A DNA stretch of 64,000 bases from Nigrospora sphaerica (Eukaryota; Ascomycota; Sordariomycetes; Amphisphaeriales; Apiosporaceae): assembly GCA_018287875.1 (NCBI GenBank), contig JAGVVL010000015.1:3658001-3722000 (forward strand), in the 5' to 3' direction. A model generated the notes under the pieces. The model did no database searches. It saw only the letters and a program-made list of their open reading frames with translations, and was not told the DNA's origin. Below, in pieces: positions 1 to 58,977 of this stretch. Numbering within the stretch: the stretch's first letter is position 1; the number at the start of each line of letters is the position of its first letter. Both the position numbers and the translations under genes were made by a program.

Positions 1-1448
1 TTGCGGAACGCTGTTGGATAGTATCCTATACGCCAGCATGCTTCCGCTAAGGAGGCTAAGGCCTGGAAGAGGGCTTTCCTAAGCGCTTAAGGAATCCGTT
101 CGGAAGCTGGTCTGGTCCGGGTGCTTTCCACTGGCCTGCCTTGCTTAAGACGTCTTGGACCTGCTCCGCTGTCACCTCGCCGTCGATGTCGAGAGGCGCT
201 GCGAGCCGGTTTGTTATACGGAAGCCGGTATGCATGGCCTTAGGGAGAGGGTAAAACCTCTCCCGGAAGGCCTCCGTTTTCTCCTTATGGGTCGTTGCTT
301 CGCCTCGCGGTGTATGAAGCGTGGGGACGGCTGGAGGTAGCGGCGGTGCGGCTCCTTCGGTTCTGGCCCATCTCGCGATGTTCCAGACACCAGCTGGCTG
401 GCTAGAGGCCTCGTGAAGCATGTTTCTCCAGGTCGCTGTCTTTGCAGTGCGGATCGTTTTCTTTTTCGTAAGGGATGCTTGCCGAAGAGCTCGCCAGGCT
501 GCGTCTGTCCTGTCGGATAGCCATGTTCGCTGGGCTCGTCTCTCCTCCTCTATAGCTTCTTTTATTTCGTGGTTCCACCATGCCTTGCCTCTCCTCTTAG
601 AGTGGCGGAGGGGGCAACTAGGTCGGCTATCCGAGTTAGCTCCTTAGTTAACGTTTCGGTGTATCTATCGATTTCCCCGGTGTCTCGAGTAGCCCTGGCT
701 GCGGAAGGTGTGTCGCCTCGGCCTTCGCTTGGTTATAGTCAGCTGTTTTCCAGCTGCGCCGTGGCTTATTCTGGGGGTCGTTTTGAGGTCCAGCCACGCG
801 TATCACCTGGGGAGGTGATCGGATCCAGCATATGGGGCGTACCCGTCGTAGGCAGCTCGGAGATCGTCCGTGGCCCACGCCAGGTCGATCGTGGAGTCCA
901 TGCACCCTCTTCGAGTCCATGTCGGTGTTCCAGGGGAGTGATAAGCTGGAGTCTCCAGGATTCTGCTAGCTGGAGTAGCTTATCGGCTGCCTTATGAGGT
1001 CGGACGTTGTGTCCTCCCCAGACAGGGTGGTGAACGTTAAAGTCTCCTACGAGGACTGTTCGTCTTAGCTGGGGACCGGTAAGGAGGGCTTCGATAGCTG
1101 GCAGGTCTGATCTGCTAATCGATCCAAGAGGAGGCGAGTATACGCAGATAACTGTTATAGGACCATCTGGTAGCTGGATCGTGATGTTGCACCTATCTGA
1201 TTGCGCCTTATAAGTCCACTGCGCTGGGGGTGCTTCTTATTAATGTAGATGCAAGCTCTGCCTCCCTCGGCGGCATAGAGAAGGTAGTACGGAGAGGATC
1301 TCGGGCAGTAGGTGGTCGGCATGTGTGGGTTTCGCCAGGGCTCTTGGATAGCCAGGATGTCGTACTCTTCGGAGATGGCATCGACTGCCGGGATCTATGC
1401 TTTCTTACTTTTCTGCGTGTTCCAGTGTAGGATCCTTAGCGCTGTCAT
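1..1448 (-). pseudogene. LINE (Tad-like) ORF2, endonuclease and start of RT, broken, runs off window
   Basis: This is the 5' part of a non-LTR retrotransposon pol. It starts 20 nt after the ORF1 stop with MTALRILHWNTQKSKKA followed by an in-frame TAG, then the apurinic-type endonuclease motif AIQEPW. A one-base frameshift lies near 1225, after IYINKKHPQ. The second half keeps the endonuclease signature STIDLAWATDDLRAAY and AGSDH (about 815-895). The pre-RT block WKAPGPDQLPNGFLK lies at about 75-130. The RT core itself is beyond position 1. The frameshift and stops show this copy cannot make a full ORF2 protein. Endonuclease nicking and target-primed reverse transcription are the known family functions. 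Confidence 0.85.
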
Positions 1449-1467
1449 GGTCGAGCGTGGATGCTGT

Positions 1468-2802
1468 TCAGTGTTGACTCCGGTGTTTCGACGTCCATGT
1501 TGTCTGTCTCTTCGTGGGTTCTGCTGCGGGCTCTGCCAGTGCTTCTAGTACGGCAGCTGGTTGCTCGACGCTTCCGCGGCTGTACTGTCTGCCAGTCCTC
1601 GGCTGTTGGCTTAGGGGTTCTTGCGAGGGCAGTGCGAATCCTTTCGGTCTCGTGATATAAGTAGCCTTGGCGATCTGGACCTGCTCCTGGCGGACTGGAC
1701 ACTCCTTGGACCACGCAGTGTGTGGTCCTCGGCATGCTGGACAGCAGTACCGACTCTTATCCTCGGCTTCTGGGCATTCTTTGTCGTCATGCTTTGTTGA
1801 AGAGCAGAGCCCGCACCTACGTGCGTGGCGGCAGACACGGGCGATATGTCCATAGCGGTAGCAGTGGTAGCACTGCTTAAGCTGGGCTCCTTCGGCGAAG
1901 GGCTCGCATGGATAGTAGCTATACTGCCAAATAAGGCCGTCTCGGCATAGCTGTTCCGCTTGTTGAACCGTGGGTACTGCAATATATAGGGCCGTGACCT
2001 TCCTAGACGAGGTCTTAGCGTTGCGAGGGAGCTTGGCCTCTAGGACGTCGATAGGGCCGCCGGGCTGGTTCCGGAGTTGGACTCCTAGCTGCCCTTGGTT
2101 CGTCTCTATAGCCTCTTTGTTGATACCATGGGCCACCACCAGGATCTTTCTCTTCTGGATAGAGGCGTTCTCTCCGAAGGCCTCGGTGGTCCAGGCCCGG
2201 TCGGTTTCCAGCTGTCGCTTCTCTTCTGCTGTCTTGCAGGTAATAGCATAGTCTCCGCTGGGAAGCTTCCGTGCAGCTATTGCTGTTTCTTTACCTGTTG
2301 CTGCGTTAACTTTACGCACGATCTCTTCGTAGGTGCGGCCTTCAGTTCCTGCGGCCTTGACCGTTACCTCCCGTTCGTGTCGAGGAGGCAGAGTCTTGGC
2401 TACCTGGGGGGCCCTGGGCGCTGGGGCTGCAGTAAGGGCTGTAGCGGCTACAGCGTACGTCTTAGGAGCTTTGATTTCCTTATAGATAGCTTGCAGCGTG
2501 TTCTCGATAGCATTGATACGTCTTTCGACGCTGGGCTGGTTGTCCGATTCCTTGGCCGCCGTCTCTAGGACCGGAATGGCGGCTTGAACCGCTGCGGCTA
2601 AGGCCGCAATGTTGACTTCACCAGCTAGGAAGCGTTTAAAGTCGTCTATAGTGCTGCGTATATCCTCTGGACTGCGTCCAGGTGTTGTAATGCTGTCTGG
2701 CGATGGTGTTCTTGAGTCCGGAGGTGACGGCTTGGGGGGTGGGGCGGGCCTATGGCGGCTCCCACCGCCCGCGCTTTGCCTCGAGGGTGGTGAATCGACC
2801 AT
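1468..2802 (-). CDS. LINE ORF1 (gag-like, zinc-knuckle protein), intact
   Basis: An open 444-codon frame encodes the nucleic-acid-binding ORF1 protein of a Tad-type LINE. The N-terminus is Pro/Ser-rich, the middle is Ala-rich with a probable helical segment, and the C-terminal third holds CCHC-type knuckles: CYHCYRYGHIARVC, CGLCSSTKHDDKEC and CCPACRGPHTAWSKEC. ORF1 proteins of this class coat the element RNA. The frame is uninterrupted while ORF2, starting 20 nt downstream, is broken, so the unit is non-autonomous. The ORF1 differs from that at 12730-14127, so the two LINEs belong to different families. Confidence 0.85.
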   Translation of the reverse strand: MVDSPPSRQSAGGGSRHRPAPPPKPSPPDSRTPSPDSITTPGRSPEDIRSTIDDFKRFLAGEVNIAALAAAVQAAIPVLETAAKESDNQPSVERRINAIENTLQAIYKEIKAPKTYAVAATALTAAPAPRAPQVAKTLPPRHEREVTVKAAGTEGRTYEEIVRKVNAATGKETAIAARKLPSGDYAITCKTAEEKRQLETDRAWTTEAFGENASIQKRKILVVAHGINKEAIETNQGQLGVQLRNQPGGPIDVLEAKLPRNAKTSSRKVTALYIAVPTVQQAEQLCRDGLIWQYSYYPCEPFAEGAQLKQCYHCYRYGHIARVCRHARRCGLCSSTKHDDKECPEAEDKSRYCCPACRGPHTAWSKECPVRQEQVQIAKATYITRPKGFALPSQEPLSQQPRTGRQYSRGSVEQPAAVLEALAEPAAEPTKRQTTWTSKHRSQH

Positions 2803-2929
2803 TTCTAGGCTAAATGAAGCCCTAGGAACAGTTTCCGGGCTATCCGGTAGCTTATAGAGTCGTGGTTGTGAAGTTATCGCTATGTGGGGTCGGTTTCGAA
2901 AAAGTTTTGGTTTGTTGGGATTAGGGCTT
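2803..2929. other. 5' end of the LINE and junction with the decayed gypsy element
   Basis: The stretch between the LINE ORF1 start and the end of the decayed protease domain should contain the LINE 5' untranslated end and the break in the older gypsy polyprotein. I cannot place the junction to the base because the opposite flank is outside the window. Confidence 0.4.
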
Positions 2930-5497
2930 CGTATTTACAGGAACGTTGTAGATAAGCGTAGCACGTGTCTTTGATAGGAAGGGCAAGCTAAGGATTATGT
3001 CGTGGCCTATTGTCTCTGCGCGCACCATTGCAAAGTTGTCCTTCACCTTATAGTCGGCGAGCTATATATAATCCTCTAATATGCTAACGGTGCTAGTGGG
3101 CTTGTCGGTCTCCGACTATCCTTTGATTAGCATTGTTCTGTCGACCACGTATAGCAAGTTCTGTTCGCAATAGCGCGACGAGATAATATTAAGCGCCGCC
3201 CCTGTATCGACTAAGGCCCAAAGGATGCTCTTATCTCCGGTTGGTCCGACTCTCACTGGGATCCTTCCTAAGGGCTTTATCCCGACTAACATGCTCGCAA
3301 TCCTCTCGATAAGCCGCGCGTCCTTCTAATCAAGGGCTCGGTCGAGTACCGCAGGTAAGCCCTCTATACTGGCTTCTGGTTATTTAGTGCTTGTCCGTAC
3401 TAAGTTGACTGTCCTGGGGTAAATACTTTCGTTATCCTTGGGTCTCGTCTTTATACTCCTGATAACGCGCTTAGTTGCTGTCTCGAGATTAACGACCTCC
3501 TCAATTCCTTATTGTCTTTCGACGCTCTCCTTTGCTAACTTGAGCAATCCGAGACCAGCGGCTGGGACTTCACTTATCAGGTCCAGCAGGCTAATCGCGA
3601 TGTTCTTATCGCCGACAGTTCGCTACAGTCGTTCCTTTTAGCGCTTGACATCTTAATCAGTGGTCTGCGCAGACAGTCTCATCTCTGGCCCCATCGACTA
3701 GCTGGGCTCAGCGTCCTTCATAACGTATGAACCATCGTTCTTACGTATACGCTTCTCGGTTGCGTTCACAGCCGTCTCTATGTCCGAGTCCTGGATCTCT
3801 TCGACTGTCGCGACTCGGGCGATCGGTTCCTGCTTAGCTTGTATAACCCGGAACCCATCGTTGTCATAGCCAGTGACTTCGTACTGGAAATCTTACCCAA
3901 GTGCGGTAGCGACTGTGAGGTTGTCGCAGAGTTCGATAGTGGTGACGGAGGGGGTCTTTACACCTTAATCAACGATGCGCCCATGCTGCTAGCTCTCTTC
4001 GGCTTTATATATAGCGATGTCCTCTTAGGTGATCTGGCTAGGCGTCGTGAGGAACAGCATATTCCTAGCAATTGCCTATTATCTGTACGTCCCCCTCCGA
4101 TTGACGAAAATATCCTTCAGCAACTCCTAGAGGCAAGGGATCCTTCGGTGTCTTGTCCAATCGTTCAGGTCTTCCTAGAGCTATTCGCCTGGTTCCAAAC
4201 AGGTGCCCATCCGCTATTGCTTAAGGTCCGGTATAAAGTGAACCACCTTCTCCTGTTCTAGGTAAGCCTTGTAAGGGCACCGCGGGCTCTTATAGTCAGG
4301 CTTACCGCAAACATAGCAGCTATTGAAATCATAGAACTAGATGAACTCTGGTTGGCTCTTAGGGATGATCCTGTCGAACGAGCCTCGTCCCCCTCGACCT
4401 CCTTAGCCAAAGCGAGAGTAACCGGAGGGTCCCATAGCGTTGATCTAGGGTGGGTCGCGTTAATTATCGCGTGCTCCCAGTGCCGTCATCATCTAGATCC
4501 TCATGTTTTCCATTATCGCTCGAACTTCATCCATTGGGTCTAGCTGGCTTGGCTTCTGCTGCTGCTAAGGCTGAAAAAGCTGGTACGGATTAACCAGCGG
4601 AGGTTGCTAAGCCTGGACTGGCGGGTTCAGTTGTCTTACGGTGCGCGCGGTCCTCTAATCGTGCATCGCTTGCTCTTCCGTATGGATCCTGGCGCTCTCA
4701 GGGTCTAGTCCGTTAGCGAAGGTGATTTCCTTAATTATCCACTTTAGCATGTGACTGCAAGTCTCCTGGTAGTCGGCTCTAGGGTTCCATTTGTACAGCT
4801 TGTGTTGGATGGACGGGTGGAATATCTTAATCAAACCTTCCTTCGTCGCCTTAGCATGCGATCCAGTGGATCCGGCTACGTTCTTGAGCTCCTGCGCGAG
4901 GCGCTGGTGTTCTTAAATGTAGCTGTGGATCTCCTTATAGTCGCTCAGCTTTAGTCCCGACTTAAGGTCGTTCAACTTCTACGTGACTGGAATTTGCTGT
5001 AGCAGATCCCCTATCTTGAACTCCGAGATTATGTTAGCCTTCATCTCTCTCTAAGTCTTACTTTTGTTAAGACAATTTTTAACATTGAACAGCGTCTGCT
5101 AACCCTCGCAATAGGCCAACACTTCGTCTATCAGGTCTTAATTAGAGAATCTGTACCTTCGTATATACAGGTTAAACATCTCGAGAAAGCTGGACACGTT
5201 GTTCTTATTAAAACGCAAGTGGGGGTATCTGCTGGGGTCTGGAGGGGGTCGCGACATCGCCTATACCCAGGGAGGAACTTCCATTGGATGCGCATGGCCT
5301 TGATCAGGATGAGGATAAGCAGGACCTGGCCTGTCTTGCGTTCCTTTTCCTTTCTTAGTTACTATTGCATTTAGTTGGTCAGGGTCTGCCTACAAATGTT
5401 GCTGGTGGACTTCGTCGTTCGGCGTCTTTTCAGGGGTATTGTTAATTGCAAGGCTTTTTAAGGCAAAGTTCTGATTAGAGTCGTCGGAGGTAGACAT
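2930..5497 (-). pseudogene. RIP-decayed Ty3/gypsy gag-protease
   Basis: Read on the minus strand, an ATG at 5497 opens MSTSDDSNQNFALKSL and a capsid-like stretch (FLEMFNLYIRRYRFS) broken by several stops. A zinc knuckle follows near 4318 as CYVCGKPDYKSPRC, where the expected His is Tyr. A retropepsin lies near 3208 with WALVDTGAALNIIS and, near 2960, GHDIILSLPFL. The gag start, the first knuckle Cys and the active-site Asp codon are all in one frame (differences of 1179 and 2289 nt), so decay is mainly by substitutions. RT, RNase H and integrase are absent here: the polyprotein is cut where the LINE begins. Capsid assembly and polyprotein cleavage are the known family roles. Confidence 0.75.
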
Positions 5498-8154: not shown

Positions 8155-8519
8155 TTATTTATTTATTATTCTTACACCTAGCGACCTATCTAGGCCATGA
8201 GGACCCCCTGCGCATCTTAGCCTAGGAAAACCGTTCCGGGCTAACGTCCGGCCGGGTGAAAAACCTAGGTTCCGCTGCGTCGTACCGCTTCTATCTGCTC
8301 TTTGACCTGCCTTACCGAGATCGGGCTCAGCGTGCCCGCTTCCTAGCTCATGAGTTGATTCGCAAGCTGGAACATGTCCAGCCTGCCCGAGCGGAGTAGC
8401 CATCTCGCGATAATTCCTGCTTTTCCTGGGGTGTCGAGCATCCTGTCCGTGTCTATCGGTCCTCCTAGAGCTTGGACGAGGTGCTCTCGTCTTTCTCTTT
8501 CCCGTGGGCAGAAAACGAG
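8155..8519 (-). pseudogene. 3' end of outer LINE (ORF2 C-terminus, 3'UTR and A-rich tail)
   Basis: Minus-strand reading continues the zinc-knuckle tail of ORF2: LVFCPRERERREHLVQALGG, then DTDRMLDTPGKAGIIARWLL, ending near 8343. A short untranslated stretch and a TAAA/AATA-rich tail follow. The upstream part is at 14256-14966. The two halves join in frame within the conserved TIRHI segment when the inner LINE and one copy of its 15-bp duplication are removed. This fixes it as one element split by insertion. Confidence 0.8.
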
Positions 8520-8534
8520 GATATGCCGGATGGT
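8520..8534. repeat. Target-site duplication of inner LINE (left copy)
   Basis: gatatgccggatggt is repeated exactly at 14241-14255, with different bases on both sides of each copy. In the outer LINE it encodes TIRHI on the minus strand. Confidence 0.85.
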
Positions 8535-8558
8535 GTGTGTGTGTGTGTGTGTGTGTGT
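8535..8558. repeat. (GT)12 microsatellite forming the LINE 3' tail
   Basis: Twelve GT units on the plus strand, (CA)n on the element strand, sit exactly between the LINE 3'UTR and its target-site duplication. They therefore replace the usual poly(A) tail. Confidence 0.8.
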
Positions 8559-8741
8559 ATTATCGCCATACTGGGACAGTGTCCCGCCTCCCGAGGGGCA
8601 TCTGGCGTGCGAGAGTCTATCTACATGAACACGAGATATCTCGCATGTCAAGCCCAATGGCAACCCTTTGGTCAAACCGTCTCCGTGGCTCCTCCGTGCG
8701 AGCTCGTTCCCGGCTCTATCTCCGTCTGAATAGCTGCGACT

Positions 8742-11700
8742 TCACATAGAGTAACTTCTGCGGCCTACCGATGGTGGGCATATATCCTCGTAGTACTTCG
8801 TTAACGTTATAAAGAGCTGGAACCTCTCCGGGTCGTGTATTAGCCGTTGCCAGTATTCCTTTAAGGTTTTCGGTTCGGGGTCGAACTTCGGCTAACGGGC
8901 CTGTTGCCTTCTTGTTTTACGGCAGTAGACTAGATGCTCCGGTGTTCGTAACATTCGGCAGGTGCATCGGTCGTTTTGGGGATGTTGGAATTTCTTATGG
9001 TACCAGTCGAAGTCCCCGTGTCCTGATCGGAGCGCGAGAAAGTTGTGGAGTGTCCGTCTAGGGAGGTCCAGCTCCTTAGGCACCTTAAGGGTAGCGTCGG
9101 TGAATTCAAGCTCTCGGTAGCGCTTACAGCCTTGGGAGGCCTCCTCCCACCACTTCGTGAATTGTTCTCGTATAATTGTTTTTCGGAGTCGCTTCACGCC
9201 TGCGTACGTAGCTTGGGCTGACCGGCGTGCTGGGAGTGCGGCCTCTTCTTTCGCTAGCCTGTCGGCCTCTTCGTTCCCTTGAATCCCCTCATGACCTGGC
9301 ACCCATCGAATGCGGACGTCGGCTATAGTCGCTATCTCCTGAAAGGCGAGGAAAACTTCTTGCGAGCTTTTCGGTGCGGTTCCCGTGAGGCCTTGGATAA
9401 CCGAGGTGTTGTCTAGGCAAACGTGGATTGTCGCGCCTGGGTTGATCCGGTGGGCTTGGCGTAGACCTTGCCACGCTCCTACGGCCTCTCCGTCGAAGAC
9501 TTCCGCTAGGCCTAGTCGGCCTTTTCCTTGTCTTATTTTCCGACCGTTTTTGTAGATCACGAAACCCCAGCCGACTGCCTCGTCCGGTCCTTTTAACCCG
9601 TCCGAGAAGACGACGAGGTGCGTGTCGGGAAGCTTTGATTGCCACGCTATGAACTCCTTCGCTGCTGTTTTCTTGTCCTTCTGCGGGTCCGGTTTAAACG
9701 TGTAACGTTTTAGGAGGTACTGTGGCCTTGGGATGGTAGGTAGGAGTCTGGCCGCTCTCTGGAGCCTGGTTCGCGTAGGCTGGTAAGAGCCGTAGCCGCG
9801 ACCTGATAGATAGGGCCGCAGTGCCGTCCGCGCTGTTAGCATATGGCTGTTGTCCATTGACTGGAGCCGTTGTCCGAAGCGATAGAACGCCGCTTCCAGT
9901 GCGATTCGCGCCGTTGGGACACCTGCGTCCCTATATAGCGTGGCTATCGGTGTTGTCTTCCATATAGGCAGAACAGCTCGTATGGCCTCCCTTAGGACCC
10001 TATTTATTTCGTCTATTTGTGCCTCTTATCGTGTCGACACCTCCGTATTGTGTTGTCGGCTAGCGAACTTTCGTGTCTTCGTGCGTCCCTCGTACCATGC
10101 CTCGGCCCCGTATGTGAGGATAGGGAGAACGCAGGTAAAGATAGCCTTCCGGAGGGCTCTTGGCGGAGGGCCTTGCTGAGTGTTGGCTAGGCTCCGAAGG
10201 TGTCGTACGACGTTTCGCGCTTGTGCCGCTTTCCTCTTCACGTGCTCCGTGAACCGTAGCTTCGAGTCGAACCAGACGCCGAGCCATCGTATAGGCTGGA
10301 CCGAGGCGTGTATGGTCAGCCCGTGGTCCCGTGCCGTTACGCTAGGGAGTTCCCCTGGGTTCTTTATGCACGTGAAATGGAGCAGCTCGCTTTTGTCCGG
10401 GTCGATAGTGACTTTGTTTCCCTTGCCCCAGTTGAGGACATCGTTTAAGTCCTTTGCTAGCTGTCGTGCGTTATCGTGTAGGGACTTGCTAGCTCGGTAA
10501 AAGCATATATCGTCCGCATACCCAAACCGGTGTCTTATGTCCTCGAGTAGGATGTCTGCGATGTATAGAAGGAATAGGACGGGGGAGGCGGGGGACCCTT
10601 ATAGTAGGCCGCATTAGATTGCCTGTGGCTTTGTTATAACGTCGTCGAGTCGGATCCGTGCTTGTCTCTCTTCCATGAAGGAGCCGACAAACTTAATAAG
10701 CTGGGTTGCCCAACCCTGTTGCCTTATACGAAGCATGAGCCGCCTCTTAAGGGTAGCGTCGAATGCGCCCTTCACGTCCACGGTGAGAATCGAGGCTGTG
10801 CCTTTATTCTCTAGGGAATGCTCGATCTCGTGTGTTAAGCAGGCGAGGAGGTCTAAGGCTGCCCGTGTCGGCAAGGCGCCGGCCTGTTGTGGGCTGACCA
10901 CCTTATGTAAGAGCGTGGTGTTCGCTATTCGTCTAGCTACGAGTCTCTCGAGGCCTTTCCCGAGGCAGGAGAGAAGCGCGATTAGTCGCCAGGAGCGGGG
11001 GTTCGAGAGGTCTTTCTTGTTCGGCTTCCGAAGCATCACGACCTCGGCTATGTGGAACGGGCGTGGGTAGTGACCGATCCGTAGGCAGGCTTAGAAGAGG
11101 GACCGTACGGGTTCTTGGATAGCCTCCTAGCACGCTTTTAGCAGCCGTACCGAGATTCCATCGGTCCCGGGCGAAGTGCTCTTCACCGCGATTGTGGCGG
11201 CTGTCAGCTCCTCCTTAGATATGTGGGTGCTCCAGGGCAGGATGCGCCGCGGTACCGTTGGGATCTTGAGAGGGTTGTCCTCGAGGTCTTCGGCGTCCGT
11301 GAATCGCTCTAGAAGGGCCTTGCGTAGGGCATGTGCCTTCTCTTCCGTGTCTTCGATTGTCTTGTCCCCGATAACTAGAGGAGGTGCCTGTAAGGCGGGC
11401 TGCAGTTTATGCCATTGGACGACCCTGTATAGGTCTTGATCGGACTGGACAGAGTCGATTTTCCGTCGCCAATATTCCCGCTTTTCTCTCCGTATCACCG
11501 CGAGGAAGTGTCTTCGTTCTTCTAGGTGTCTCCAGTCCCCTTGGTGGTGTCGTCTTGCTCGTCGGAACGCGTCCCGGGCTGCCCGGCAGGCGTCGGTCCA
11601 CCATAGCGCATTGTGACCGTTCTTAATTGGCTGCTTCCCGATTGTTTCTAGCGCTCTGCGTAAGAGGGCTAGGATCTCCGTTGCCCGTTGGTCCAGTTGA

Positions 11701-21707: not shown

Positions 21708-21940
21708 TGTAAAGGGGCCGGGCGGGCGGATCGGCGGTGCGTCGGCGCGCCGGCGGGAAGCAAGCGCCAGGGCGGTCGCCGAAACGGCGGAGCGGCGCCA
21801 CGTTAATCCGGGGCGCCCTTATGCAGAATCTGGCCGCGCCCGCAAACGGAGGGACGGCCAGATTGAAGTCAATACAGCCAGCCAGTCATTGGAATTGCGT
21901 GCACATAGTCACCTCGTTCGATTCGTATCATTCCGTTACA
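21708..21940 (+). repeat. 5' LTR of the chromovirus
   Basis: 233 bp, TGTAAAGG to CCGTTACA. The base-for-base match to 30880-31112 was checked by eye. No obvious tRNA primer site follows (the next bases are attcttcaatctctac), so self-priming is possible but unproven. Confidence 0.9.
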
Positions 21941-21976
21941 ATTCTTCAATCTCTACACCACGAGAACGAGCCGGCT

Positions 21977-23326
21977 ATGGCACCCGCTACCCGATCGCGC
22001 CCCGACAGCTCGACGCCCGGTCAAGCAAGCTCTCACCCCAACTTAGGGTTAGGAGCCAACGAGCCAGCCGCGCCGAGCAACGCGGCGATCCCCGGCGCCC
22101 TGACTACCGGAGCGGGCACGGTGGAGGGGCGCCCGTTCCCAATGGACGAAGGGCCCACGGGCGCGGACGAACCGCGACCATCCGGCGAAACGGATCCAAG
22201 CCCAACGCCGGGACCCGACATGTCAACCCCTCGGAGTCCGATCTGTTCCGGGTCGCCACGCGGGAGAACGACCTTCTCCGCGCGCTGCTGAAGACACAGC
22301 AGAAGATGATCGAGATGATGACGGCGGACCGAGCCGACCGCCAACGGGGTCAAGGACTAACGCCGCCCAGTCGGAGCACGAGCGGAGAACCGCGCACGTA
22401 CGAGAAGCCACCGACTTACGCATGCAAGAAGCTAGAGGAGGCCTCGACCCACGTGGAGATCCGAAGCTGGATCGTGGCGGTGGAACAACAAAACGAGAGC
22501 CGACCCGACCAGACGGATGCTCGCTATATCGAATGGGCCCTCACCAACGTGGACTACGCCTTGCAAAGCGAGTGGCGCACCCACGCCGAAGATCTATACC
22601 CGCAAGGGAAATACAGCGAGCAGGCCAAGTGGGCAGACTTCTTAAAGTTCATTCGACGGGAACACATCGACCCGGCTCAGAATATGCAGAGGTCAATGGC
22701 GGCGCTACAACGGATCCGGCAAACGGCCGACCAATCGCCGACACAGTTCTATAACGAGTGGTCCGCGTGGCAGCGACGGGTTCGAGAGAGCATCGCAGGC
22801 CAGCCCCTCATCGCACACGAGTTCCTACTCAAGCTGCGACCGTGGCTACGGATGGACATCATTCGGGATAACGTTGCTATCACCGACGCCCAAGCGGTCG
22901 CCCACGAGGCGGAGCGTCGATGGCAGATCCTCTCCCCTTATCAGCGAAGGGATCGCGAAGGGACACGCGACGGGACTCCGGGAGGAAGGAAGCGACCCCG
23001 GGCCGAGCACGAGTTTAGCGGGACCCGACAGGGGTATGTGAACCAGGCGGTGGTGCAACCAGCGTCGAAGGTTCGTCGAGGGGGTTCGGCCCAGGCGCCA
23101 CCGAGAGGAGACCCCGCCCGAAGTACGTCCGTTGCTATAAATGCGGCGAGGGGGCCATATCCAGCGGGATTGTACGGCCAAGCCGCCGGGCAGGCAATCC
23201 CCGGCGGCGCACACCGGCGCTACACGAGCGGCCGGCGCGCGGATCCAGGCGGCAGAGGTGAAGCAAGAGACGCCCCAGTACCGATCCGACTCCGACTGGA
23301 GCGCGAGCGAGGCGGGAAATGTGTAG
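21977..23326 (+). pseudogene. Chromovirus gag (frameshifted)
   Basis: The likely start is MAPATRSRPDSSTPGQ at 21977. Coding shifts frame near 22230 (C-run), where SESDLFRVATRENDLLRALL begins. It continues through a capsid-like region (WADFLKFIRREHIDPAQN, ALQRIRQTADQSPTQFYNEW). The zinc knuckle near 23133-23180 is split: the first part reads CYKCGE in one frame and GHIQRDC in another, across a run of five G. Gag ends at a stop at 23324-23326, and pol continues in the -1 frame. The frameshifts would prevent a full Gag unless they are sequence errors. Confidence 0.7.
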
Positions 23327-26300
23327 CTGAGCCGGACGGAGCGCAAGACGACTCAGCGGACACACACCGCGCGACAGGGGTGCTAGGCGCGGCCATGCGC
23401 ACCACGGGCCAGTTATGCGACGAACTCGGCCGAGCGAAGAAGCCGATTCGGATCGACCTGGATTCGGGGGCCGAGGTCAACGTGATCGCAAAGCGGACGG
23501 CGGATCGAGCCGTCACGAGGGGTTGGGTTACGAAAGTCCCCATAACTCTGCCGCGACTTTTAGGGGTCGACGGGCAGCCGCTACGGTGCTATGGCGCCGT
23601 GGAAGCGGCGATAGAGATGCAAGACGTGCAAGGGCAGGTACGGAGGTTCACGCAGGTGTTCTTCGTCGTGCGCCGAGATAAGCACGCGGCCCAGGTGCTA
23701 CTGTCCCGCCCGGGCATGGGGCGGGAGGGAATTACCTTAGACACACGAAAGCCAGACACGTTCACGTTTAGAGTGATGCAGTTCGTGGGGCCAGAGGAGT
23801 TCGCCCGCGAAGCGACCGAAGGCGAACCGGTGCTAATCGCCCAGCTAGCGAGGCTAGAGTTAGGTGACGCGTCGGCGATACCGGGGCTTGACGACGAACC
23901 GCCCATAGGGACCGTCGCGCTACCAGCCTGTTTAAAGGAGTACGAGGTCGTGTTTAGTGAGTCCGCAGCCGCGGAGCCGCCTATTTTAGGAGAGACACCG
24001 CACACGATCGACCTCATCCCCGGCGCACAGCCTCCACACGGACCTATCTATCCCCTCTCAGAACCGCAACGAAAGGAGCTCGAGGAGTACCTCGCGAAGG
24101 CGTTGGAAACCGGTCGCATTAGGCACTCCACGAGCCCGGCGGGGGCACCCGTGCTATTCGTGCCAAAAAAGGACGGCAGTCTACGACTATGCGTCGATTA
24201 CCGGGGCCTAAATAAGGTCACGGTAAAGAACCGATATCCGCTTCCGCTAATTAGCGAGCTGATGGATCAGCTGGGGTCGGCGAAGGTGTTCTCGAAGATG
24301 GATTTACGAGACGCCTATTTTCGCCTCGCAATCGCAGAGGGCGACCGCTGGAAGACCGCGTTCCGAACGAAGTACGGCCACTTCGAGTATAACGTGATGG
24401 CCATGGGGCTCACGAACGCGCCCGCCACGTTTCAGGCCTATATGCAGAAGGCATTAGCAGGGCTCATTGACACCATTTGCGTGGTTTACCTCGACGACAT
24501 CGTCATCTACTCGCAGGACGCGAAGGAACACGCGACGCATCTCCGAATGGTGTGCGAACGGCTGAAGGAGCACGAGCTATTTGCGAAGATCTCGAAGTGC
24601 GAATTCTTTAAAGAGGAAATCGAGTTCCTAGGATTCGTGGTCGGCCGAGTAGGCTTAAAGATGGACCCGAAACGAGTGATAGCCGTGCAGGAATGGCAGC
24701 CTCCTGAGTCGTACCGGGACATCCAAGTGTTCCTAGGGTTCACCAACTTCTATAGGAAGTTCATTGCGAAGTACTCGCATATCACGGCACCGATTACGGC
24801 GCTACTGAAAGGCATGGAGGCCGGCCGGAAGAAGGGCCCGTTCCAGTGGCCCCTGGACGCACAGAAGGCGTTCGAAGAGCTAAAGCACGCGTTCACTTCG
24901 GCGACGGTGCTCCGACACTGGGACCCGGAGAAAACTAGCAGGGTCGAGACAGACGCGAGTGATAGGGCAGTCTCAGGCATCCTATCACAGAAACAAGGAG
25001 GTGGCGAGTGGAGGCCAGTCGCCTACTGGTCGCGGAAACTCACGGCGCCCGAGCTGAACTGGGCCACGGGCCAAAAGGAACTGCTAGCGATTGTCGAATC
25101 ACTCGAGCATTGGAGACACTACCTTGAGGGGCTGAGCGCCAAGTTCACGGTCTGGACCGACCACCAGGCACTGAAAGGGGTCGTGGAAGCACCGGCGAGA
25201 GACTTACGAGGCCGCCTCGCAAGATGGGTGTACAGGCTCTCGCATTTTGACTTCGATATGGAATATCGGAAGGGGCCACGAACCCGGCGGATCCGCTATC
25301 GCGGCGACCAGACTACATGGCTGGGGAGATCAGCTACCACGACGTGATTCCGTCACTAGCAATGAAACTGGCACTCGTCGACCAGCTGCCGGCCGAGGTC
25401 CGACACCAGGTGGCAAGGATCAGCACCACGAGAAACGTCGGGACCGCGACGTACGTGGGGGCGGTGCGGGCGATGGTGACGCACACAGACAAAAGGTCGG
25501 CGGGTGGCCAGGGGGGACGCGGTCCTTGCCCCGGTAACCCGGGCACAAGGCCAGGGAGGGCCACCCACGACGAGGCGCCGAGCAGTGATCGACGAGGCCG
25601 GTGGGGGGACAGGTGCTCCCGAGAGCAGTGGCTCGAAGCGTGGCAAGAAACGAGACCACTTGGGCGGATAAGCCCACTGAGGCGTTCTACCAGCTCATTC
25701 GGGGGCTACAACCCCAGGACCGGGACATCGCGGAACGAATGGAGAAGGCGCGGCAAGGCCAAGCTGCGGGGTACCACCTAGACGAGGAAGGAGCCCTCCG
25801 ATTTAAAGGAAGGCTAGTCATCCCTAATGAGGGAGCGTTAAGGGCCCAACTACTCCACCAACACCACGATGACCCCAGGGCGGGACACCTAGGCGCGAAT
25901 AAGACCTTAGAGCTGCTCACGAGGAAGTTCCACTGGCCCGCGATCGCCGAGGAGGTGCGACAGTACGCAGAGTCATGCCAGGAGTGCCAGGGAGCAAGGA
26001 GACCAAGGCACAAACCGTACGGCCTACTCCAATCCCTACCGCTACCCGAGGGACCCTGGCAAGAGATTAGCATGGACTTCATCACTGGGCTGCCGATCAG
26101 CTGCCGACCCGAGGGCGACGCCTGCGACGCCGTGTTAGTCATCGTGGACCGATTCACGAAGATGGCACTGTTCCTACCCACGAGGAAAACCCTAACTGCG
26201 GCAGAGTTAGCCCATATCCTGTATAAGGAAGTGGAATGCCGGTACGGGACGCCCCTCGGGATTGTGAGCGATAGGGACTCCCTACTCACGAGCCGGTTCT

Positions 26301-27183
26301 GGCAAGAGTGGTGCGAGGCAAGGGCAACGAAACGCCGGCTGAGCACGGCGTACCATCCCCAAACGGACGGGCAGACAGAGAGAACGCACCAAACACTAGA
26401 GAAGTGGTTACGCACGTGTTGCGACGAGGCGACATGGGCATCCGGGCTACACGAAGCCGAGTTCGCCTATAATAACCGCCGCCACGACTCCATCGGGGTG
26501 TCACCGTTTGAGGCGCTGTATGGATTTCACCCGAGGATGACGGAGTTCGCCCCCAAGCAGAACGCTTTCGGAGCGCGGGCGTGTTAGAACGGCTACAGAA
26601 GAGCCGAGAGGTCCGCGCGCGTATGAGAGAACACTGGGACGTCGCAGTGAAAGCCCAACAAAAGGGCTACGACCGAAGGCACCAGGACCAAGAGTTCCAA
26701 CCAGGTCAGTGGGTAGGCCTCTCGACGAAGCGGTTCCGATTTAAGTGCGGTGCGAAGCTCGCCCCGACGTACATTCGGGTAAAGGTCACGGAGAGGATTG
26801 GTAAGGTGGCCTACAGGGTCGCCCTGCCCTCGCAGTACGAACGGATACACGACGTGTTCCCAGTGTCATCGTTGGAGCCATGGACTGGCAAGGCCTCCGG
26901 GGACCATGAGGCACTCCCAGGACTGGTGGAGGACCAAGAGGAGTGGGAGGTCGAGGATATCCTCCGACACAGGACGACCGCCCGAGGGGCGGAGTACCTC
27001 GTGAAATGGATGGGCTGGCCGGTGGAATATAACACCTGGGAGCCAGAGGCGAACCTGGAGAACGCGCCGAAGATCGTGGCACGCTATCGTAAGCGGCGGT
27101 CCCACCGTAAATGGGACGACGATCGCCCTCCGAGCACAGGAAATCACGGAGTGGCGGGGCGCGAAGCGCAGCAGATCAATTAA
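23327..27183 (+). pseudogene. Chromovirus pol: protease, RT, RNase H, integrase, chromodomain (frameshifted)
   Basis: One frame from gag to 25347 carries protease IRIDLDSGAEVNVI (Asp at 23461), RT (LRLCVDYRGLNKVTVKN, FSKMDLRDAYFRL, VVYLDDIVIYS at 24481) and RNase H (ETDASDRAVSG, QKELLAIVESLEHW, VWTDHQALK). A shift near 25278 leads to PLSRRPDYMAGEISYHD. Another near 25500 leads to the integrase (25601-26587): HHDD-HLG, CQECQGARR, SMDFITGLP, SDRDSLLTSRFW and TDGQTERTHQ give zinc finger and D-D-E. A third near 26575 leads to GDKV-like and chromodomain sequence (EEWEVEDILRHR, YLVKWMGWPVEYNTWEP). Chromodomains target such elements to marked chromatin. Catalytic residues are intact. Confidence 0.82.
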
Positions 27184-27352
27184 CGAGGCCAGGGCCTAGA
27201 AGTACACGGAGCTAAGCCATGCAATTGCTGTGGAAGGTCGCACGCGGCATGCAGAGTAGGACGCAGGAGGTCCGCTAGGCGGCGTACGGGCGACGAGGAT
27301 CCGCCAAAGCGCAGGACGCAGCGGATGAGGGGACGGCAAACTAGGTGACGCG

Positions 27353-30300
27353 TCAGGGCGACCTAGCGGCGAGACGGGCGAAGGCGTCGCGAAGGAGGGG
27401 TCCAGCCGAGGGACCGTGAGCCGCGTCGTCGGCGGCAGAGCGGCGACGTTTGGCACCTCGGGTCGACGAGGACGGCGAGACGGCGGGCGGAGCGATGCCA
27501 CCGAGGACGTTGATCCGTCGCAAGCCGAGTGACGAGAAGGCGCTGTTGTAGTACTCCTCCATTGCGGCCGGGGACCAGTCCTTAAACGGCAGGGGGAGGA
27601 GCCGCCGCCGGAAGGCTAGTCACGATCTCGGAGACGTACCGGGGTGTGTACCCGGCTCCAATGGGATCGGGGCGGGTAGCGTCGATCGGGAAGCGGCGCA
27701 GGACATGCGATCGTCCGCCGGCCTGGGCAAGCCGAGCCAGAGAGAGATGGCCAGCTCGGGGAGCACAACCAAGGACGTCAGCCGTCGCCGAGAGCGTGAT
27801 GGTGGCCACGTCGAGGTTCTCAGTGTCTCGCGTGTGCTGAACACTAGGCGGCGCGGGATGGGAATCCCAGCGCATAGCCGTGTCTATCTCGCGGTTCGCC
27901 GAGTGGAGACTGAAGTGCCGGGCCCAAAGGACGTCCCGGAAGGCGGTAACGCTGACAGGGGAGCGGGGTCAGGATACAGCTCGAGGATGCGGTTCATGGC
28001 CCGTCGGCGGGCGAGCGCCCATTGCTCGGCAGTCCAGTGTGGGTCCACGGACGGGCCGGTCGGGGCAAGAGCTTGCGCGGGTGGCGGCATTTGCGCCGAC
28101 GCGTCAGTGCCCCCGAGACCATGTCAACATCGCCATCAGGGCTAGGGGAGCGGTCACCGCCGGTGTCGGAGCCAACGGACAGGGCGTTGCCGCCGTCGGA
28201 CGCATCTGGGTCGGCGACCGCGCTCAAGGGAGAGGAAGGGCCGCACGAGTCCAGACCGTCCACGACATCGGAACCAGAGCGGCTACTGTCCAGCGAGGAA
28301 ACGTCGCGACCGCCGTCGCCGGGCATGCTGAAGTTTACCCGCTTAGGCGAAGCGAACGGGTCGTACTCGCCTTGCCATAGCCCGGAGAGGCGCTGTAAGT
28401 ACGCTGGCCGTTCGCCGGCGACGAGAGGGGACGGCAGCGAGCCGCCGGACGAAGGCAAGGGGTGTAGACGTCGAAGCCAGGTCTCGAAACCGCGTCGGGC
28501 AGTATGGTAAACGTCGTACATTGCGACAGGATTATGGTGGCCTCCAACCTCGGAAGGGCGGGGGAACCAAATCGCGAAACTCAATGAGTTTCTGGTCACG
28601 AGCGGACGAATGAGGTGGCTCGGCGACGGTCGTGGGGACCTGGTCGAACTTATGCCACAGTTCCAAGCGCGCGGCGACGCAGTCGCGATACTCCTCCGCG
28701 GACCAAGGCTTCTCAGGCAGAGGACAGGTATTGGAGATCATCGTGAGATGGATCCGCCGCTCGGCCCGCCACTCCACCATCGAGGAGGCGCCGCTAGCGG
28801 AGGGAGCACCGCTAGCAGAGCGGACGCCGGAGGCAGGGTTGGAGGGCCAGGGTGTCGCAGCACGAGTGGAGCGCTGGACCCGAGAGGCCGGCGCAGAGGA
28901 CATCGGCGCGTCCGACAGGGACGCAGCAGAGGACAGCAGGTCGCGATCCTCTAGCGCAGGCGCGCCCGAGCCACCCCGGCCGGAGGGGCCAGGACGGGCA
29001 CTGGAGCCGGAAGGAGAGCTGCGACCGGACGGCGACTGGACGTACTCGCCATCGTCGTCAGTGTCCGCACCCAGGCTCGAGGCGTCGTCGTCAGAGTCCT
29101 CGTCGTCGGAAGGCGATTCATCGCCAGGCATCGCGGCGGGGACTGGCGTGAAGGGCGACGAAGGCCCGGCGGAGTCGACTCGTGCGTCGGAATGGGATCG
29201 GCGGACAGACGCCTTGCTACCCTACCGGAAGTGTTAACTAAGGACCGGTCGCGTCAAAACGAAGACGGGGAGGACTCACCGGGGTACGGCGACCAGGGGC
29301 GGCGGGACCTGCTCGAGCAACGCGGCTCTTACCATGTTTCTCCCGCCGGGCGTGGTTGACACCAAACCACGAATCAACCCTCGCAGCACCTTTTTCTGCG
29401 ATCGTTTGAACCGACGCTGCCAATCGATATCCGATGTGGCCTCGCCCGCGAGAAAATGGTATCCAGGCGCCCAGCGGTACAGCTTGTCGTCGTAGTTGTC
29501 GACGGTTAGGCGATAAAGTTCCTCGCAGTGCGCGATAAGGCGGGACAGGCTATCGGCACTGCGATCGCCGACAGGAAGGGCGAGGGTGTATCGCCGCTGG
29601 TACTCCTCAGCACTGACAGGCTCCCGTTGGCCATGGGCGCCCTACCGGAACACGATTAGAACCAGTACGCCGACGCGGCGGCGAAAGGAGGGGAAACTCA
29701 CGGCGAGGATGTCCGTTTGTAATTGGACGAACCGGCGCTGGCTCTGCGCCTCAACAACGGCGAGGGAGTTGGCGGCTTCGCGCTTTTTCTGTTCCTTGCG
29801 CTCCTGGAAGACGGCAATGTCCTCCTCATTGCAGCATAGGCGGAAAGCCATCGCCGCCTCGTGGTAGACCGTCTTGAGCGACCCATAGGCTTGGACGTAT
29901 CGCCAGTTCCAATTGGAACTGCCCACCTGGCCCATGTGGGTACCGCGGTATTGAAGGACGCGAAGATGGGCGATGCCAGCGGTGAGGACGCGGCCGGCAC
30001 CGACCAATTCCTCGGGAATCTAAACGCGTCAGCCATCGCAACACAGTCGCGGGCAAAGGGCAACACAAACGGCGACACATTTGCGATGATCAATGGCGCA
30101 GATCCCGCACTTGCCGGCACCCTCACAGTTCAGAGAGGGATCAACAGCGCCGGTCGTGACACTGTTGCAACAAAAGGCATTGGGGCTAGAGGGGAGGGTT
30201 AGCAACGCCCGAGGCAGCCGAGCGAGGCCCGATAGAGCGCCGACCAGGATGCGGGACGCACAAGGAAACGACAAGATCGTCGTCGGCGTTCCGGGACAAA

Positions 30301-30407
30301 GGGCCGCCGGAGTGTCCAAAACGAAAGACAGAGTGACAGGCGGGGAGGACCTCCCACTCGCGAATGCGGTTAAGCGCGTCCTCGCGCGAGTAGATCGGGT
30401 ACAGCAT
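27353..30407 (-). CDS. Antisense accessory gene of the chromovirus, about 900 codons, four introns, unknown function
   Basis: My exon model: 30407-30262, 30185-30071, 30019-29702, 29641-29333 and 29221 to about 27353. The introns are 76, 51, 60 and 111 nt, with donors GTGCGT, GTTTGT, GTGAGT and GTAAGA, acceptors ending in AG and branch-like GCTAAC, GCTGAC, CTAAT and TTAAC. The first four exons (888 nt) read through without a stop and all junction phases agree. The N-terminus has a Cys cluster (FCCNS, then NCEGAGKCGICAIDHRKC). Exon 3 has a charged helical stretch (EDIAVFQERKEQKKREAANS). Exon 5 is Ser/Asp-rich with repeated Trp-centred modules (PWSAEEYRDCVAARLELW, HWTAEQWALARRRAMNRIL, DWSPAAMEEYYNSAF). 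Exon 5 needs one-base corrections near 28560, 28112, 27958 and 27597, mostly in C/G runs. No known domain is recognised. Confidence 0.6.
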
Positions 30408-30879
30408 TGTCGGCGAACAGTCGAAGAACGAATGGATGAGGAACAGAGAGCGTCACGAAACACGAGACGTACGGGGAATGGAGAGGTCGCCTGCCACAAG
30501 GAACGGGAACAAAGGAAAGCTGCAACCAGGCGCCGACCCAGGAGTTGGTATGGAGTACGGAGCTACAAACAAAGCCGAGCCCTCGGCGCCCCAGGCAGCA
30601 ACACGGGCAGCGAGGCAGCGAGGCGGCGAGGCGGCGAGGCCGCCGCGACAGAGAGCGCGACTGGAGACAAACACGCAGCGCGGGGCAGCGCCGCCCAGGC
30701 AACGACCGGCCGCCGACGGGCGGGCCAGCAGACATAACGAGCGCATAGGACAACCCCACGAAGGGCGGCGACCACAAGGTGGCGGGCCAAGGACCCACGC
30801 GGCGCGGCGCACCCGAGACCGCTCCACCGATAGGAATTCCACGGGCGCCGGAGACCGGGCCCAGGAATTGGGGGGGCAT
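30408..30879. other. Leader/promoter side of the antisense gene, next to the 3' LTR
   Basis: About 470 bp of GC-rich DNA between the antisense ATG and the 3' LTR. It contains a short tandem gaggcggc-type repeat at about 30610-30645. Open frames on both strands are long only because stops are rare in such sequence. The bases before the 3' LTR (ggaattggggggcat) may serve as polypurine tract. Confidence 0.45.
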
Positions 30880-31112
30880 TGTAAAGGGGCCGGGCGGGCG
30901 GATCGGCGGTGCGTCGGCGCGCCGGCGGGAAGCAAGCGCCAGGGCGGTCGCCGAAACGGCGGAGCGGCGCCACGTTAATCCGGGGCGCCCTTATGCAGAA
31001 TCTGGCCGCGCCCGCAAACGGAGGGACGGCCAGATTGAAGTCAATACAGCCAGCCAGTCATTGGAATTGCGTGCACATAGTCACCTCGTTCGATTCGTAT
31101 CATTCCGTTACA
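30880..31112 (+). repeat. 3' LTR of the chromovirus
   Basis: 233 bp, apparently identical to the 5' LTR, followed by the target duplication CTAGC at 31113-31117. Confidence 0.9.
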
Positions 31113-31117
31113 CTAGC

Positions 31118-31950
31118 CTTTAAGGCTTTAAATTGCTAGTCTACAAAGTCATCGTCGTTTAATTATATAGTAAACCATTGCTTTTAAACCTGCTGTAAGG
31201 ATCCGAAGGAATCACAATGGCACCGTCAGGTATAGGATAGCGAAGGGCAGGCTCAATTCCACTGCAAGACTGATTCTTGCAGAATCCAAGTTCAGGTCGG
31301 GCGCCAGCAGTGCGCCCGCTCCTCGCTAGTAGGCTGCCGGTGGGTCTGTACCGCAGGTCAGGTGACCAGCCTGCGGATGCACCTCTCCAGCGCCTCCTCC
31401 TTTACACCTGCCTTCTTAAAGATAACTAGAAGAGACAGGGCTTGGCTAGCTGTAAAGACAGACTCTAAAGACGTCGTCCACTCGCCTCTTGTGATATCTA
31501 AAGTGAAGACCTTTGTAAAAACAGATAGTCCAATAATAAAGAGTAGTCTCTAAGGCTAATCTAAGCTCTAACCTTATTAAAGTTCTATATATGCTCCTTA
31601 AGGATATCGCGGATACGCTTTTTATTTAGCCTTAAGAAGAACTCTTTAATGTTTTTATATATAGCGCTATTAACATACTAAAGTAACATTCATTAGACTA
31701 GTTAGTGCTTTTAGGCCTCACTAAGGGCTTAACAATGCCTTTAAGCAGTGTATTTAAGAGGCTTACACTCGAAACGAGATGTAAGGTAGTGTTTAAAGGC
31801 CTATATTACTTAGCGATAGACCGGATAGAATCTCCTTAGCAGACTTAAAGAAGAACAGCAGCTAGCTATAGTTTATTTATAATAATAAGTATTGAACGAA
31901 AGCATAGAATGTGACAATTCGAATGGTATAACCTTTAAATAAATGTAACC
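31118..31950 (-). pseudogene. N-terminal and central part of pogo copy B transposase
   Basis: Minus-strand reading from about 31560 gives LFIIGLSVFTKVFTLDITRG and EWTTSLESVFTASQAL, then LLVIFKKA. It is then interrupted by the 31194-31406 solo LTR. It resumes at about 31190 with KQWFTI, LNDDDFVD and QFKA, which joins at the CTAGC duplication to the frame at 21702. An internal one-base shift is likely near the joint. The helix-turn-helix start could not be read. Confidence 0.6.
31194..31406. mobile_element. Solo LTR (213 bp), TSD CCTGC
   Basis: Starts TGTAAGGATCC and ends CTTTACA, flanked by CCTGC at 31189-31193 and 31407-31411. Removing it with one duplication restores the pogo transposase order VIFK-KA to KQWF. 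Not the same family as the other LTRs here. Confidence 0.78.
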
Positions 31951-32010
31951 GTAGGTGGTTAATATATTTGGTGTTGAAGCAAAAAAGAAACACCTTAAAC
32001 TGTCGCTAGA

Positions 32011-32055
32011 CGTGTGGCGGTTTGATGGGCCTGTCCCTTGGTCGACCCCCTAGCT
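32011..32055. repeat. Terminal inverted repeat, right, pogo copy B
   Basis: Reverse complement of 19746-19790 at 41/45 positions, followed by TA at 32056-32057. Confidence 0.8.
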
Positions 32056-32089
32056 TACAGCCATTTCCCTCCCGCCCCAGCTCACGTTT

Positions 32090-56936: not shown

Positions 56937-58977
56937 GATGGACAGCGGGCTGCAGAAAAGACGAGGGCAAGGCGTGGCAGCGGCTGCGAGCATAGGACGA
57001 GACGGGCAGCAGGCGGGAACGGCCACGGGCTTCAGTCGAAGTATCAGGCTTTGGCTCGCCCAAGGTTAATGAGGCTCATGTCTGACGGGCAGTCGGACCA
57101 ACTGACGCACCGGGGTTGGCTGACCAAAAGGCTGACATGGAAGCAGACAACGAACAAGTGGGTCGCCTAGAATTAAGTTTTCTGTAGGCGTTGCCAAGAG
57201 GGGCGGTGTGTGTGCTGGTGCCCCGATCCCAATGTCTTGTGCTCCACACGACGAATGTCGTGCCACGGAGAATATACGCTCGGCCCATTCCACCCTTGGG
57301 AACGGCCAATAGGACCTCGGCGTCCGCCCGTCGGTCCCCGCGGCCATGGCGGCTTGCATACGAACTGCCGGGCGGATTCCGCTGTTATAGACACATGCAT
57401 CGCGTGCACCCTTGCCGGATCCGGATATTCACTAAACAGACCCCTACTATGCCAAGAGGTCCGCAGCATAAATGAGATTCTAGACTTGCTGCGTGTGGCC
57501 GGAAGGAAATTGGGTACCCGAGTTCCTCGTCTCTGCTGAGCTAGGGGAGCGGTTGGGGGAGCGATTGACTGGGTTGAGGCCTTTTGTCTCGTTGTTAAGA
57601 GCCGGTGTGCCCCAAAGTGGTTCCAGGCCTAGATGTATTAAGCCTAGCAAACCCAGAAGACCGGATGCTTTAGACGGTATTACACGATAGCCCAGACGCA
57701 TTCGATAGGGGCAAACTACGGTTTGTATGTATTGTGCTCCCGTTCACAGTTTCTTCTCCAGGCAGCTTTAACAGAGTTTCTAATTCCCGAGCCCACCGGG
57801 ATGTAGATATACCGCCCCACTCCCATGGGAAACAACCTCGGCGCCCGAGTCATTTTGTCAGCACGCGGAGTCCCCGCCAGCTCCATGACACGCTACGCGG
57901 TCGTTACGCCCGATACCGCCCTCGCCTCCGGTTTCATGCCTCACAATATATCCCAGACGCCGTATGGACTTGTTTCGCCCCCTTCTCGGCAGCACCGTTA
58001 TCTCGAGCCCGTGCGAATTCCTTGAAGTCAGAATGCTAGGGTCGTGTTCACTGCAGGGTTCCGGCGTTGTCTTATGCCCCAGTTATCGGTTGGTTACATA
58101 AACGCTAGATTTGTCGCAGATCCATTCGGCGCTCGACTGGATCCTTTTCAGTAGATATTCTCACAGGATTATAGATAACCTCAAAAAGATCTAATCAGAA
58201 ATGGAGGGCCAGCGTTTCACCACTAAAGCTGCGTTGGGCTTGTCGCTACTAGCGTTCTCGACCTAAATTAGCTCTCAACTCCGCAAGGCTTGAGAATAGC
58301 GCTACCGCGAGCCTCGACGGCGTGTGAAGGAGAGCGATGGAGGCTGCACATGGGACGGAGATCAAGGCCATACTAAGCCTCATTGGTGACGTTCCCACAA
58401 AACAACGTTCGGACGTGGCACCATGAGATTCTCGCCGGTATCCAACATGCACAGTGTCACGGTTCAAGGAACGAGGGATCTGTTAATGACCCAAGGGTTC
58501 TATTGAGGTGCGAAAAGTACAGATGAAGAGGAAAAGAAGAGGAACAGGCTCCTCGCAGTCACTGCTTGGCAGGAATATATCCAGCCAGCGGCGGTACGCA
58601 CCGCCGGCCAGTGGTAAGTTGTCCATGCGTTCCCATGCCCTTGTACCTATGCACCCATGCCGTAACACACAGCTTGTTTTCTTGACGTTCAGGTACGTAC
58701 ACCGAAAACCCTGGCGAAAAGCTGACGCGGATGAGCCGGCTTATAGTAGGGATGGCACGGTCCGGCAAACTGTCAAACGCTACAGCGAACATGTCCTAAG
58801 GCACGTGGAAACGGTGAAACAAGTTTTAGAACCGAAGCATGTGTCTACGATGCCGCACTCAGAGTCCCGTGTCTACTTAACTTACGCACGCCCGCCGTTG
58901 TTCTTTTAGGAGGCCGCTGATCACATATCATTTTCCAATCCTTCACGGCTCACCTGCTCTTTCTCCATCCCCCCGCT
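56937..58977. other. Intergenic region, about 2 kb, no gene supported
   Basis: Open frames on both strands (57066-57539, 57734-58039, 58508-58909) lack domains and overlap. It contains the promoters of the flanking divergent genes. Confidence 0.4.

Follow-up and report, generated by a model that had tools for sequence, protein, structure and literature searches.

The chromovirus that occupies positions 21708-31112 of the stretch of Nigrospora sphaerica DNA analysed here, 64,000 nucleotides long and called the window in what follows, carries on the strand opposite to pol what its sequence indicates is a real gene. The explanation that we consider probable, taken as a whole, is that this accessory gene of a Ty3/gypsy chromovirus is genuine, is spliced and codes for a protein, which would be a nuclear regulator of the element.

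The element has a 5-bp TSD, CTAGC, on the outer side of both LTRs, and its sense features are the following:

21708..21940, plus strand: 5' LTR, repeat unit of 233 nt, 100% identical to 30880-31112, with CTAGC before it
21889..25347, plus strand: open frame with RT and RNase H (Pfam RVT_1 6.1e-37, RT_RNaseH 3e-33)
25601..26587, plus strand: integrase frame (Pfam Integrase_H2C2 7.9e-18, rve 1.3e-8)
26581..27183, plus strand: integrase C-terminus and chromodomain (Pfam Chromo 6.9e-19, SH3_Tf2-1 1.7e-12)
30880..31112, plus strand: 3' LTR, 100% identical to 21708-21940, with CTAGC after it

The order RT-RNase H-integrase, the C-terminal chromodomain, the LTRs and the 5-bp TSD identify a Ty3/gypsy chromovirus, and the identical LTRs and the TSD show that it is young, or recently active. 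Gag and protease are presumed, from their expected position, to lie within frame 21889..25347, in which no Pfam match to either was found. By eye, the insertion seems to sit in a repeated stretch (window 31113-32080), which also abuts a relic of the antisense gene at about 8440-9300 of another locus of the genome, L024.

Between the end of pol and its chromodomain, at 27183, and the 3' LTR, which starts near 30880, there are indeed 3.7 kb, as the original prediction had it. Its minus-strand ATG at 30407 and its four introns, separating exons of compatible phases, are confirmed, and the Cys cluster CX5CX2CX6C and the Trp-centred modules that it described are present in the translation. The antisense gene model reads, in the order of transcription:

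30408..30879, minus strand: putative promoter and 5' leader, placed by position between the ATG and the 3' LTR
30262..30407, minus strand: exon 1, ATG at 30407
30186..30261, minus strand: intron 1, 76 nt, donor GTGCGT, branch-like GCTAAC, acceptor CTCTAG
30071..30185, minus strand: exon 2, with the Cys cluster CX5CX2CX6C
30020..30070, minus strand: intron 2, 51 nt, donor GTTTGT; acceptor position kept in the relic L024
29702..30019, minus strand: exon 3, charged helix; dN/dS of about 0.03 against the relative L021 over 33 codons
29642..29701, minus strand: intron 3, 60 nt, GTGAGT...TTCTAAT...CGGTAG; present in L021, and matched in L024 in both place and phase
29280..29641, minus strand: exon 4; dN/dS against L021 of 0.067 (82 codons) and 0.39 (37 codons)
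29222..29279, minus strand: intron 4, 58 nt, GTGAGT...CGGTAG; also present in L021
27353..29221, minus strand: exon 5 region, with acidic and Ser/Pro-rich stretches and Trp modules, TGA at 27353-27355, and homopolymer frame breaks in the window copy

All four introns are GT-AG, the donor of intron 2 being a weaker one, and a scan lists branch-like motifs for introns 1 and 3. As to Cys patterns, the protein has the cluster and one CC pair only. The pol and antisense genes are convergent, and their ends are about 170 nt apart.

The survey for copies covered the genome from which the window is taken, 51.6 Mb in 33 contigs. It yields at least 23 matches to the 3.7-kb stretch, 20 of them full-length and three partial; the full-length copies are the window itself, 18 near-identical ones and one at 94%. 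The chromodomain of the family gives 20 hits (19 at 100% and one at 87%), which pair one-to-one with the 20 full-length copies of the antisense region, and no family copy devoid of that region is found among these 20 hits. The differences of the 94% copy, L020, are almost only C>T or G>A, which appears to be the mark of RIP, and locus L022 is likewise dominated by such changes; both were left out of the selection tests. L020 is also absent from the multiple alignment, where its anchor was not found, and from the per-copy reading of frames, which thus bears on 19 copies.

In these 19 near-identical copies, the four antisense introns are kept without exception (one base shorter in three copies, intron 1 measuring 75 nt in two), as expected if they lie on the strand that genomic RNA leaves unspliced. 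This is consistent with the prediction that antisense introns would survive retrotransposition. In each of the pairs L012/L013 and L011/L019, the two copies have identical 8 nt beyond the 3' LTR, and L016 has an LTR that runs into internal sequence of the element: these may be duplicated segments, assembly duplicates or tandem elements, and independent insertions may thus be fewer than 19.

The window copy is open for 403 codons from the ATG, the last part of these being in a shifted frame, and a single frame from 30407 to 27353, as first proposed, does not exist in this copy. The first 296 codons are free of stops, as had been noted, but the gene is larger than this figure implied, with up to 723 open codons in other copies. 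When copies are read as assembled, none mended, with introns removed before frame reading, the first stop falls at codon 723 in two of the 19, between codons 543 and 645 in six, at codon 403 in eight, at codon 237 in two and at codon 66 in one. The 32 variable columns among these copies consist of 24 length differences, nearly all in one-base runs, and 8 substitutions. The homopolymer length differences, which make the frames break at differing places, are likely long-read sequencing errors. The 723-codon sequence itself is far from what composition would give: none of 500 dinucleotide shuffles is stop-free, with a mean of 15.3 stops and a minimum of 6. The GC3 of the antisense frame is modestly raised, at 0.71 versus 0.67 and 0.56.

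With just 8 substitution columns, dN/dS is impossible to compute among the near-identical copies, and evidence of selection comes from a diverged relative. Locus L021 contains a 600-bp relative at 85% DNA identity, which runs from within exon 3 through intron 3, exon 4 and intron 4 into the start of exon 5; both introns have their splice ends kept, and the substitutions have no C>T/G>A bias. Over exons 3-4, 49 of 73 substitutions fall at the antisense third codon position, in an alignment that extends a few bases past the match, and 46 of 67 do so in the local dN/dS blocks alone. Among the six frames, the antisense one has the lowest ratio of those that could be computed, 0.03 in the block of exon 3 and 0.067 in the longer block of exon 4. 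The next lowest is the sense frame that shares its wobble positions (0.062 and 0.141), but this frame contains stops. Over the 37 codons at the end of exon 4, the antisense ratio is 0.39 and that of this sense frame 0.45.

Since L021 and L024 are relics in which stops occur, selection is established for the past only, in a test that covers part of exon 3 and exon 4. Within these bounds, the comparison shows a predicted antisense frame held under purifying selection in part of exon 3 and most of exon 4.

The L021 fragment lies inside an element, at 4092-5225 of that locus, with 60-nt inverted terminal repeats that are 98% complementary; truncated and with stops, it is a captured piece of the gene. 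The L024 relic is more distant, with about 30% protein identity: its exon-3 homologue has 324 nt versus 318 nt in the window, an acceptor stands at the end position of intron 2, and a phase-0 intron of 66 nt occupies the place of intron 3. L024 and L026, with their stops or isolated exons, are relics, and no obvious chromovirus surrounds either. Finally, L027 is a mutated relative with 35-47% amino acid identity over the matched pieces, whose antisense exons lie on the minus strand, upstream of a 68% LTR match; with this arrangement, the placement of the gene looks older than the present burst.

Antisense genes are also found in other chromoviruses of this genome. A sister family (L028, L031, L032, L033 and L034), at 49-50% to the window in the integrase C-terminus, has minus-strand open stretches with intron-like gaps between chromodomain and LTR. 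It carries a different, apparently spliced antisense gene, and the window antisense protein has no match in it. Between L028 and L034, the antisense dN/dS is 0.157 in exon D, 0.246 in exon C, and 0.155 and 0.68 in two blocks of exon B, a sense frame being slightly lower (0.65) in the latter block. The two longest antisense blocks have a dS of about 1.3-1.6, and the other two of 0.46 and 0.61, against 0.30 in pol. At the DNA level, 420 of 1198 aligned sites, or about 35%, differ in positions 450-1650, a span that takes in the extreme end of pol; elsewhere, the difference is about 3-7% in chromodomain windows and about 5% in LTR windows. This pattern suggests an exchange of the antisense segment between elements that are otherwise close, the alternative being faster evolution.

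Six other chromodomain loci, L035 to L040, were inspected. L035 and L037 have an intronless antisense ORF, beginning MSGR, that starts just 3' of the chromodomain and encodes a protein of about 200 aa with the pattern CX2CX6C-X8/9-CX2CX6-7C followed by a coiled coil. There are 25 merged loci of this MSGR type; 16 are opposite to and 3' of a chromodomain hit, 15 of these within 124 nt, and nine are without such a partner. The frame is present in five of the seven copies inspected and absent in two. Among the five, dN/dS is 0.3-0.6 in nine of the ten pairs, with dS high or saturated, and 1.8 in the tenth, a near-identical pair with 13 changes.

Proteins of the MSGR type have 73 relatives at E<=0.01 in the protein database, including Fusarium, Colletotrichum and Pyricularia, some of them named Zn(2)-C6 fungal-type. 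An alignment of 18 members, chosen from 75, has five invariant Cys. A true Zn2Cys6 domain has weak support: Pfam Zn_clus matches 3 of the 18 (best E 0.007), and the matches to PUT3 and Cep3 in PDB have E 0.37-0.74. No sequence similarity links these proteins to the window protein: searches with two of them list no locus of the window family, and the pattern CX2CX6C-X5-12-CX2CX6-8C is absent from the window protein.

Antisense genes are not universal in the chromoviruses of this genome, since L036, L038 and L039 have no minus-strand frame of at least 90 aa that was taken for one, and the long minus-strand frames of L040 look like a host gene and not like an antisense gene of the MSGR kind. On the minus strand of L040, at about 1000-4085, downstream of a chromodomain remnant, long near-perfect TPR-type repeats stand beside an NTPase-like frame, in what we take to be a fungal NLR-like gene. 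The window also contains part of a second chromovirus (61716-63998, minus strand), with a 774-aa open pol frame and no antisense gene beside it, the sole opposite-strand frame of at least 150 aa being terpene-synthase-like. We presume that the 294-aa plus-strand frame at 59484, with its motif NDxxSxxxE, is terpene-synthase-like, and that the 425-aa minus-strand frame at 57065, next to the terpene-synthase-like frame, is phosphotransferase-like.

To judge from database searches, the window antisense protein is without detected relatives outside its own genome. The spliced product was compared to about 5.8 billion proteins, with 7992 candidates scored and none at E<=0.001; its residues 1-335, in the same database, gave 5775 candidates and none at E<=1. 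The database is rich in fungal proteins, but candidates had to be 0.55-1.75 times the query length and to share exact words with it, limits that make this absence only mildly informative. With the antisense product of 685 aa, Pfam gives no family at E<=1, so that neither TRP28 (PF04195) nor bZIP is found in it. A scan of IMG/VR returned three stretches that fitted a pattern, none of them a relative.

Alternatively, a host gene with introns might have been captured in antisense recently and be a passenger without a role in the life cycle; capture of a host gene had also been envisaged by the original prediction. The retained introns, the relics L024 and L026 outside any obvious chromovirus, and the lack of relatives elsewhere all fit this scenario. 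However, among the matches listed in the own genome, where the best candidates were scored, there is no intact host homologue that could be the progenitor, L027 has the gene in the same arrangement, and the antisense genes at the same place in some other chromovirus families argue for a function in the element, and favour an old element gene. We thus regard capture as unlikely. The accessory gene that travels with its element, also part of the original prediction, is supported by the one-to-one pairing of chromodomains with full copies and by the past purifying selection.

It could also be the antisense RNA that matters, and not a protein: a transcript acting in cis would make double-stranded RNA and damp the element. 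This has been proposed for such loci, according to PMC7264820, and the convergent gene ends would lend themselves to it, but codon-level constraint and conserved intron positions point to a protein, and we find this account improbable. More improbable still is a gene brought by another transposon nested in the element and spread by hitchhiking: fragments of the gene do occur elsewhere, as within the inverted-terminal-repeat element of L021, but that piece is truncated and has stops, and there is no inverted pair of at least 60 nt in window 18000-40000. That the frames are mere chance openings in GC-rich DNA, as the broken window copy and the long chance frames of the sense strand (one has 307 codons) might hint, is scarcely credible in view of the shuffles, the conserved introns and, in the main, dN/dS.

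A genuine accessory gene of the element could work as follows. Its transcription by host Pol II would start at a promoter of its own that lies just inside the 3' LTR. In the sense genomic RNA, the antisense introns would be present as an unspliceable complement, and would thereby survive reverse transcription. The product, with its N-terminal Cys cluster, charged helix and acidic Ser/Pro-rich tail, would enter the nucleus and regulate the element, through transcription, copy number or escape from silencing, as has been proposed for Grande and Retand and is known for HBZ of HTLV-1. The cluster, helix and tail are compatible with a nuclear regulator, and no more than compatible; we infer that the product is most likely a nuclear regulator of the element, expressed from a promoter of its own, and a role in regulating transcription is plausible by analogy only.

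HBZ is the product of a spliced antisense gene that starts in or near the 3' LTR of HTLV-1, and is a nuclear regulator with a bZIP domain. The window gene is likewise antisense, spliced and situated at the 3' end of its retroelement, but its protein is without a Pfam domain. PMC11963269, which names HBZ, reports that for Retand, of a non-chromovirus lineage, a regulatory role and the DNA-binding TRP28 have been proposed. For Grande, PMC7264820 describes an antisense gene with its own promoter and a nuclear product. In Retand, Grande and RIRE2 (TRP28, gene23), as in the window element, antisense coding sequence separates pol from the 3' LTR, but those are plant elements, and TRP28 is not found in the window protein. 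The reviews consulted give the function of the antisense genes of LTR elements as not known.

The original prediction knew of no described fungal element with this arrangement, which is wrong. Besides the plant cases, there is a precedent in the antisense gene brtn of the fungal Boty elements of Botrytis cinerea (Zhao et al. 2011, Virology 417:248, as relayed in PMC8365987, PMC7264820, PMC4227169 and PMC5987419); according to PMC7264820, plants have antisense ORFs between pol and the 3' LTR relatively often, and Botrytis and Sclerotinia have them as well. The term "antisense" was not found in LTR Retrotransposons in Fungi (PMC3248453), and no spliced fungal case was recognised in the literature searched, most subscription papers being outside its reach.

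As described in PMC4227169 and PMC7264820, the fungal element Boty has, in addition to gag-pol and a chromodomain, a single antisense gene, and the window element likewise has an antisense coding gene, between pol and the 3' LTR. The window gene, for its part, is large and has four introns. The MSGR-type gene shares with the window gene its antisense orientation, its place directly 3' of the chromodomain in the own genome, and a Cys-rich N-terminus before a coiled coil, but is short and intronless, with Zn2Cys6-like Cys spacing. Genes of the MSGR type may be a nearer match to brtn than the window gene is, and their family is possibly the BRTN family.

The arrangement is thus already known; what was not found in print is a large antisense gene with four introns and a sequence of this type, or the presence of three antisense types in one genome. 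This single genome has a large four-intron gene, a second and apparently spliced one in the sister family, and a compact Zn2Cys6-like one, and one of these kinds sits in a family that has spread very recently. It is tempting to conjecture, although we rather doubt it at this stage, that an antisense "regulator cassette" is common in fungal chromoviruses and exchangeable, that several unrelated protein types fill this slot between pol and the 3' LTR, and that elements otherwise nearly identical swap their cassettes, of which the window gene would be a large, intron-bearing and undescribed type. Such swapping would be expected if the cassettes set self-recognition or copy-number specificity. In any case, a retroelement can keep spliceosomal introns by placing them in antisense, where the splicing of its genomic RNA does not reach them. 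Since the sister family hints at exchange within the slot, whether these proteins regulate elements, or discriminate between them, becomes testable.
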